A DNA stretch of 32,218 bases from positions 29,628 to 61,845 of the forward strand of contig MEZX01000002.1 in assembly GCA_001774395.1 (NCBI GenBank). Reading direction: 5' to 3'. Origin of the DNA: Candidatus Berkelbacteria bacterium RIFCSPLOWO2_01_FULL_50_28 (GTDB lineage Bacteria; Patescibacteriota; UBA1384; 2-12-FULL-50-11). Below, piece after piece: positions 26,706 through 28,740 of this stretch. The stretch's first letter is position 1, and each line of letters opens with the position of its first letter. The notes beneath the pieces are model-generated. The model had not been told where the DNA came from. It ran no database searches and worked only from the letters and a program-made list of their open reading frames with translations. The position numbers and the translations under genes were made by a program.

Positions 26706-27752
26706 TTAGTCCTCGTGGACGGTACTAATTTCCCCTGAATCCGAAAGCTCACGCAGTTTACTCTCAATCTCGTCGGCCGTCTTCGGATCACCTTTGAGAA
26801 AAGCTTTGGCAGCCTCCCGCCCCTGCCCTAGCTTTTGCTCTCCGTACTGGAACCAAGCACCCGATTTGTCAACAACTTCGAACTTTACGCCTAAATCAAT
26901 TAGGTCTCCTTCTTTTGATATACCATCTGCGAACATCAAGTCAAATTCAGCTACCCGAAACGGCGGCGCTACCTTGTTTTTCACCACTTTCACTCGACAG
27001 CGGTTACCTATGGCGACATCGCTGTCTTTTATCTGCTCGCTCCGGCGAATGTCCAAACGAATTGAGCAGTAAAATTTCAGAGCGTTGCCACCGGGGGTGG
27101 TTTCGGGGTTTCCGAACATCACCCCGATCTTCATTCGGATTTGGTTAATGAAAATCAGCACTACTTTGGATTTAGCAACCGCGCCGGTCAGCTTGCGCAA
27201 GGCTTGGCTCATGAGGCGCGCTTGCACCCCCATCATCGAGTCGCCCATCTCGCCCTCGATCTCGGCGCGTGGCACCAGCGCCGCCACCGAGTCAACCACA
27301 ATCACGTCCACCGCATTTGAACGCACCAGCGTCTCCACTATCTCGAGCGCCTGCTCGCCGTTGTCGGGCTGGGAGATTAGTAGGGTATCCAAATTGACGC
27401 CCAGCTTGGCTGCGTAACTTGGGTCGAAAGCGTGCTCGGCGTCAATCAAGGCTCCAAGTCCGCCGGTTTTTTGAGCGGCTGCAATTGCCGAGAGCGCCAG
27501 CGATGTTTTGCCGGATGATTCCGGTCCGAAGATTTCGATAATCCGCCCGCGCGGTAAGCCACCAACACCAAGGGCCAGATCGAGCGAGAGTGAGCCGGAG
27601 GAGATGGCGTGAATGTCCAAGTGTGGGCTTTCACCCATCAGCATAATTGAGCCGGCGCCGAACTGTTTTTCAATTTGAGCCAGCGCCGCCTTCAGCGCTT
27701 CGCCGCGACCGGAAGCGACCTCCTGTTTGTCGTTTTTTGTGTTTTTTACCAT
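26706..27752 (-). CDS. recA: Recombinase RecA
   Basis: Walker [69 protein letters not shown]. Start at ATG 27752 with SD AAGGAG. Confidence 0.98.
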
Positions 27753-27769
27753 CTTTCTCCTTCTTAACA

Positions 27770-27909
27770 GGCGCTTGGCGGTCTGGCAACAGCGTGTCGG
27801 AGGTGTCTTGAGCTTGGTCCCCGCTGAAGGCGGGGTCAAACGCCGAGACGCGAGCAGCGAAGCGTCGCTGGAACGCGAGACTGCGTCTGTTGATGGAGCG
27901 CCAAGCGCC
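27770..27909. repeat. Nested inverted-repeat element in the recA leader (MITE-like or structured RNA)
   Basis: GGCGCTTGGCG (27770-27780) / CGCCAAGCGCC (27899-27909); CAACAG/CTGTTG; internal hairpins CCCCGC/GCGGGG and CAGCGA/TCGCTG; CTTCTTAACAG direct repeat at 27760-27770 and 27924-27934. Confidence 0.8.
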
Positions 27910-27917
27910 GGCTACCC

Positions 27918-28631
27918 CTACTTCTTCTTAACAGATGAGCTGCTGGATGCAAGATCGCCACTAAACAACACTTGAACTACTTGCCGCGAAACTCGGTCGG
28001 CTCGACTACGAGCCTGAACTTCAATCTCGTTTACACCCGGCGAGAGCTGGACTTCCTGGCTGAATCCACCCTCTTGTGACACGAAAATAGGTTCGCCGTT
28101 GATCGTCATAGTAGCGCCCTCCGACACATTGCCCGCAAGAACTACTTGGTCTCTGTCGGTTGTAAACTCAGCCGGTACACTGCTTATCTCAAGCCGCGGC
28201 GGCGAGGTGAACTGTTGCAACTCAAGGATAATGTATCCAGCAATCCCACCGAAGACGATGATCGTACCAATAACCGTCAGCAACTTCGGCGTAATTAGAA
28301 AATGCCAATCGCCGACACGCCTTGGTGAGAAAGCAACGCTTGACTCATTCATCCCGTGCCAGGTTTGGCTGCGAGCATCACGATATAGCGACACCAGACT
28401 CCCCGGGTCAAGGTGCAGATACGTTGCGTAACAACGCACGAACCCAATGTTATAGGCTTCACTCGGCAGTTTACTAAAATCGTCATTCTCCAACGCCTGG
28501 AGATACTTGGCAGGAATCTTCGTTTCGGATTCGGCTTGGGCCAACGAAATATCAAGCTTTGTTCGAGCCGAACTGAGGGTACCGCCAAAAGTGCGGTTGG
28601 AAGATATTTTTTTGGTAACAAAAGACCGCAT
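27918..28631 (-). CDS. RodZ-like HTH_25 membrane protein
   Basis: HTH GGTLSSARTKLDISLAQAESETKIPAKYLQALENDDFSKLPSEAYNIGFVRCYATYL; TM; C-terminal Ig-like extracytoplasmic domain. Confidence 0.85.
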   Translation of the reverse strand: MRSFVTKKISSNRTFGGTLSSARTKLDISLAQAESETKIPAKYLQALENDDFSKLPSEAYNIGFVRCYATYLHLDPGSLVSLYRDARSQTWHGMNESSVAFSPRRVGDWHFLITPKLLTVIGTIIVFGGIAGYIILELQQFTSPPRLEISSVPAEFTTDRDQVVLAGNVSEGATMTINGEPIFVSQEGGFSQEVQLSPGVNEIEVQARSRADRVSRQVVQVLFSGDLASSSSSVKKK

Positions 28632-28740
28632 CCGCAAGTTTCACGCTACGCCCATACTTTGAGGATGTCAAAGGAGGATTATTCGTCGCAAAGTAGCAGG
28701 CTCTCCAAAAAAAGTAGATTTTTGAAGCATTACCTTACTG

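Follow-up and report, generated by a model that had tools for sequence, protein, structure and literature searches.

A covarying palindromic fold between rodZ-like and recA genes belongs to an interspersed, candidate mobile element family of small-genomed bacteria, probably Patescibacteria

Within the window, by which we mean the whole 32,218-nucleotide stretch of DNA analysed, a rodZ-like gene carrying an HTH_25 domain and recA lie side by side on the minus strand, and the junction between them holds a palindromic element flanked by two copies of a direct repeat. The recA reading frame likely starts at the ATG at 27749-27751; the longer, TTG-started recA frame in the ORF listing runs into the element and is an unlikely start. 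The parts of the locus are as follows.

26706-27751, minus strand: recA, with its likely ATG start at 27749-27751
27760-27770, strand not given: recA-side copy of the direct repeat CTTCTTAACAG
27770-27780, minus strand: P1a outer arm, GGCGCTTGGCG, pairing with 27899-27909
27771-27923, minus strand: putative inserted unit of 153 bp, between the two direct-repeat copies, where relatives have no element
27785-27893, minus strand: core, the part to which both covariance models, R1 and R2, align
27787-27792, minus strand: P1b inner basal helix strand (plus-strand CAACAG), pairing with 27887-27892
27798-27805, minus strand: internal-loop strand CACCTCCG, identified by conservation
27807-27840, minus strand: P3 middle helix, plus-strand CTTGA (27807-27811) with TCAAA (27836-27840), identified by covariation
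27812-27818, minus strand: 7-nt bulge ACCAAGC, identified by conservation
27819-27835, minus strand: P3 apical hairpin CCCCGC/GCGGGG, identified by covariation
27862-27876, minus strand: P2 hairpin, identified by stem covariation and loop conservation
27866-27872, minus strand: conserved 7-nt P2 loop, TCCAGCG
27887-27892, minus strand: P1b inner basal helix strand (plus-strand CTGTTG), pairing with 27787-27792
27899-27909, minus strand: P1a outer arm, CGCCAAGCGCC, pairing with 27770-27780
27918-28637, minus strand: rodZ-like gene, HTH_25 domain
27924-27934: rodZ-side copy of the direct repeat CTTCTTAACAG, encoding the end of the rodZ-like protein

The present rodZ-like stop codon (27918-27920) falls within the putative inserted unit. 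The recA-side direct repeat holds part of the recA Shine-Dalgarno region and, by comparison with relatives, resembles the ancestral rodZ C-terminal codons, as expected if a target had been duplicated. The two CTTCTTAACAG copies thus have the look of a target duplication.

The repeats, hairpins and direct repeat that the original prediction had listed here were all recovered by sequence inspection and a repeat search, the hairpins at 27819-27835 and about 27855-27870. The details of pairing are different in the family fold, where the CAGCGA/TCGCTG hairpin is replaced by P2, GCGT-TCCAGCG-ACGC, on the minus strand. Folding energies of the region are somewhat below those of dinucleotide shuffles on the plus strand (-84.3 kcal/mol, z -2.8) as well as the minus strand (-74.8 kcal/mol, z -2.3).

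When the genome itself was searched with the region by BLAST, a 29-bp match at another locus came up, which proved to lie inside a second copy of the element between two genes that we take from their sequence to be dnaX and dnaB. This copy has the same core and unrelated outer arms that pair with one another; a run of 25 N inside it (L002:1458-1482) gives the impression that assembly broke off at the hairpin, unless the stretch is masked. Five further copies were reached through weak matches within the class, and a covariance model (R1) was built from seven copies. Under strict filters, R1 found at least 40 matches in at least 10 of 56 genomes of the class, with at least 13 in one genome and at least 12 in another. 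A second model (R2) was run on an even sample of 381 genomes across the phylum and found copies in at least 32 of them. The window core scores 102.8 bits with R1 and 91.9 bits with R2, the window copy itself being among the building sequences of both models. Its own 850-kb genome holds about four copies (at least three by R1, at least four by R2), and genomes with matches range from about 0.5 to 1.4 Mb, small sizes that suggest Patescibacteria. The recA-leader element is one member of an interspersed, multi-copy family. The family appears to be previously undescribed: searches of Rfam 15 at gathering and relaxed thresholds matched nothing relevant, and we found no description of it in the literature on such repeats or RNAs in Patescibacteria. 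Exact-pattern scans of genome contigs and viral contigs gave zero copies; a single viral pattern match was dismissed as chance, the best R2 score on that contig (11.3 bits) falling at another place. Also in the window's own genome, a divergent copy (L129:2496-2604) lies inside an open frame of 994 codons that runs antisense to it, the frame being a putative gene.

The central fold of about 109 nt consists of a long basal helix, a three-way junction and two arms. The original prediction had looked to covariation as a check on its structure, and in 41 copies the signal is very strong, with a score of 0.718 against 0.203 in shuffles and double changes in 303 cells compared with 98. The signal is lost when the partners are slid, the score then reaching at most 0.157. 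Standard pairs fill 87.9% of cells, compared with 55.9% in shuffles, a percentage that leans towards the model in that the alignment was fitted to a related one. Unpaired motifs are also conserved on the family strand, which is the minus strand in the window: the P2 loop has TCCAGCG, the bulge next to the P3 apical hairpin has ACCAAGC, and an internal loop has CTCCG. Some copies elaborate on this plan. An extra hairpin lies within the conserved P2 loop of L104:2960-3099 (G039) and L207:2044-2174 (G111), and another long palindrome takes the place of the P3 apical loop in L162:2205-2454 (G347); other G347 copies sit inside a longer palindrome ending in TTATTTTGC/GCAAAATAA. Short intergenic repeats of the type CCCCGCCGTAGGCGGGGACCAACTTTGACTAAC in G060:C1 (L054-L056) resemble the P3 tip only.

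Covariation of this strength speaks for a structured RNA with a cellular role in operons, multi-copy by chance and kept by selection; an intercistronic element for RNase III/processing or for mRNA stability would be an example. Functional RNA normally tolerates G-U pairs far better than A-C mismatches. Against such a role, the core stems show no clear G-U excess on either strand, with 19 G-U against 29 A-C in 41 copies and 57 against 41 in 109 copies, where 24 of the 57 fall in the two pairs that adjoin the P2 loop and whose alignment is less certain. These counts therefore lend no clear support to an ordinary RNA function. On the family strand of the basal helix, G-U pairs are less common than A-C mismatches (66 against 166), and a G-U excess emerges only if the opposite strand folds; with A-C in the majority there, it is therefore the opposite strand, plus in the window and the one read in the original prediction, that forms the better hairpin. 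The bottom strand folds better in 100 of 108 copies, which we rejected as a strong signal, since the preference is mostly base composition and only 2.8 kcal/mol of it is left against shuffles. Taken as they stand, the pair counts would favour a DNA hairpin, or an RNA of the opposite strand, over an RNA in operon sense, without settling the matter, and recognition as folded DNA seems at least as likely as an ordinary RNA function.

The genomic setting bears on the same question. Most copies occupy short intergenic gaps, and where the upstream gene is codirectional its stop codon typically lies 15-35 nt before the core, that is, at the base of the outer arm. This frequent placement right after stop codons fits an operon RNA, as does the excess of sense over antisense copies between codirectional genes (34 against 15, gene calls being simple ORFs); yet about a third of the copies in such gaps are antisense, presence is patchy between species, and at least one copy, L216 of G369, apparently interrupts a reading frame. 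Two sites occupied in both G111 and G151 carry compensated changes in the arms, which again is what a selected RNA would produce, although the shared occupancy may also mean that the two species acquired insertions in this gap separately. Weighing these points, we consider an operon RNA rather unlikely.

The neighbours of the copies are diverse. In G021 they include topA, recR, cysS, prfB, ybaB and the gene for ribosomal L1 protein, and across genomes the copies adjoin such unrelated genes as dnaX-dnaB, topA-recR, prfB-ybaB, rplA, an atp locus (L207, presumably, from its sequence), 23S rRNA and rpmH-dnaA, several of these names resting on sequence only. Two of the settings were assigned by eye: apparently beside 23S/5S rRNA for L101 (G001), and apparently between rpmH and dnaA, near a DnaA-box-like sequence, for L195 (G190). 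The original prediction had offered a regulatory RNA controlling recA as one of its two readings, to which the stable fold and the location immediately before the ribosome-binding site of recA lend themselves; but the element is absent from the rodZ-recA junction in all seven same-family relatives (7/7) and the same fold stands beside many unrelated genes, and we regard recA control as highly improbable. In the two closest relatives the rodZ stop overlaps the recA start.

The other half of the original prediction, a MITE-like mobile element, fares better: the element is present in multiple copies, orthologous sites are found empty, and a direct repeat flanks the window copy. Empty orthologous sites that also show no palindrome were observed in G151, for the copy at L206:1978, and in G402, for L195. 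Flanking repeats of 11 bp, the length seen around the window copy, occur in 2 of 109 related copies, whereas none of 3234 control pairings of random left and right flanks gave one of at least 11 bp. Repeats of at least 10 bp flank 2.8% of copies, compared with 0.15% among controls; the excess at 9-11 bp is confined to a few copies, most having no long flanking repeat. The label MITE itself is only partly apt, because conservation falls in the centre and spares the ends, whereas a terminal-inverted-repeat element would show the converse, and because no transposase turned up in searches for Y1_Tnp and RVT_1.

Within one genome, outer arms are 28% identical, about the chance level, where cores are 80-90% identical; identity is 27-30% between most copies and rises to about 49% only in the most similar pairs, with cores at least 90% identical. 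Own arms nevertheless pair far better than permuted ones, reaching at least 12 Watson-Crick pairs in 47% of cases compared with 5.5%; the arms lie outside the covariance model, so this test against arms exchanged between copies is independent of it. No conserved terminal inverted repeats run across copies, the arms being complementary within each copy, and the ends of the inferred units have no terminal motif in common. Three very similar cores in G190 have clearly different outer arms with only the innermost bases in common, and in the sister genome G402 one G190 site is occupied by a similar core with different arms while another is empty.

Such unrelated arms around very similar cores could mean that the mobile unit is the core and inner helix only, inserting into the loops of pre-existing palindromes whose arms are the target. 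One orthologous site in G151 keeps the hairpin arms with the core gone, and this coreless hairpin can also be read as a palindrome that the core enters. We nonetheless judge this arrangement quite improbable: the two orthologous empty sites described above contain no palindrome, and the direct repeats, where present, lie outside the arms. A related idea, in which only the 3' arm is new, made as an inverted copy of a 5' arm native to the target, was dropped because both arms are missing from the empty sites L218 and L229. We suggest tentatively, and with more doubt than confidence, that a mobile element recognised by its folded centre has its arms regenerated or quickly overwritten so that each is the inverted counterpart of the other, with no end sequence fixed; such renewal might proceed, for example, by fold-back or template-switch synthesis.

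For a partner enzyme we searched two domain families, Y1_Tnp and RVT_1, and found none. Y1_Tnp is absent from the copy-bearing genomes G021, G347, G190, G332, G170, G001 and G003 by domain search, and both domains are absent from G021, G347, G332, G170, G001 and G003, of which G021, G347 and G332 are rich in copies; conversely, G028 has both and no element match. Y1 transposase and reverse transcriptase do not track the element.

Comparison with known repeats places the family among small interspersed palindromic mobile elements, its own mobility being putative. REPINs and REP elements, like the window family, are small, interspersed, extragenic, hairpin-forming and non-autonomous. REPINs show compensatory changes on the two hairpin sides; their ends are conserved, their spacer varies and they have a RAYT partner (PMC3116915). 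The window family differs in having a conserved centre and variable ends, with no REP-like sequence at both ends, and in not being tracked by a Y1/RAYT transposase; with a fixed centre between arms that change freely yet still match, it inverts the REPIN layout. MITEs are nearer in size and habit, as are Rickettsia palindromic elements. With MITEs the family has in common short, non-coding, palindromic copies, multiple and dispersed within one genome, in short intergenic gaps and with likely target duplications; it differs from them in lacking conserved terminal inverted repeats, in conserving the fold itself through covariation and in having no parent transposon identified among Y1_Tnp and RVT_1. 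Rickettsia palindromic elements and ERIC/RU are palindromic repeats of about 100-150 bp, likewise similar to the window family, that occur genome-wide and at times inside genes (PMC10969869, PMC2759123). By description, the window family is set apart from these in that its outer arms keep hardly any fixed sequence. Rickettsia palindromic elements and ERIC/RU keep recognisable sequence along most of their length. Integron attC sites are also folded imperfect palindromes with variable but pairing arms, often just downstream of a stop codon. In attC sites the centre is variable and the ends are conserved, a layout that, by general description, the window family reverses.

We lean, with modest confidence, towards a non-autonomous, mobile palindromic element whose structure is conserved, forming a family of small-genomed bacteria (presumably Patescibacteria). 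A domain folded in single-stranded DNA, or less likely in RNA, would be recognised by a host or element-encoded enzyme and inserted with a short target duplication of about 7-11 bp, mostly into short gaps between genes, where insertions are tolerated. The window copy would have entered the rodZ-recA junction, the duplicated target preserving the recA ribosome-binding site and the insert supplying a new rodZ stop codon. Movement by an enzyme, the strand or molecule that folds and the upkeep of arm pairing are inferred parts of this scheme; the multi-copy family, its covarying fold, the empty sites and, for a few copies, the flanking repeats are observed. Several points weigh against it: no partner was found among Y1_Tnp and RVT_1, the unit ends have no motif in common, long flanking repeats are missing from most copies, and the compensated changes at sites occupied in two species go beyond what a selfish copy, once dead, would be expected to display.

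Bacteria with very small genomes are generally considered poor in repeated mobile sequences, and the present folded, interspersed elements form a family in such hosts that is large and easy to search for. They raise the questions of which enzyme recognises the element and how the arms stay complementary, and they caution that strong covariation alone need not mean RNA. At L173, L174, L203, L100 and L123, elements occur in opposite-orientation pairs about 30-210 bp apart, like doublets.
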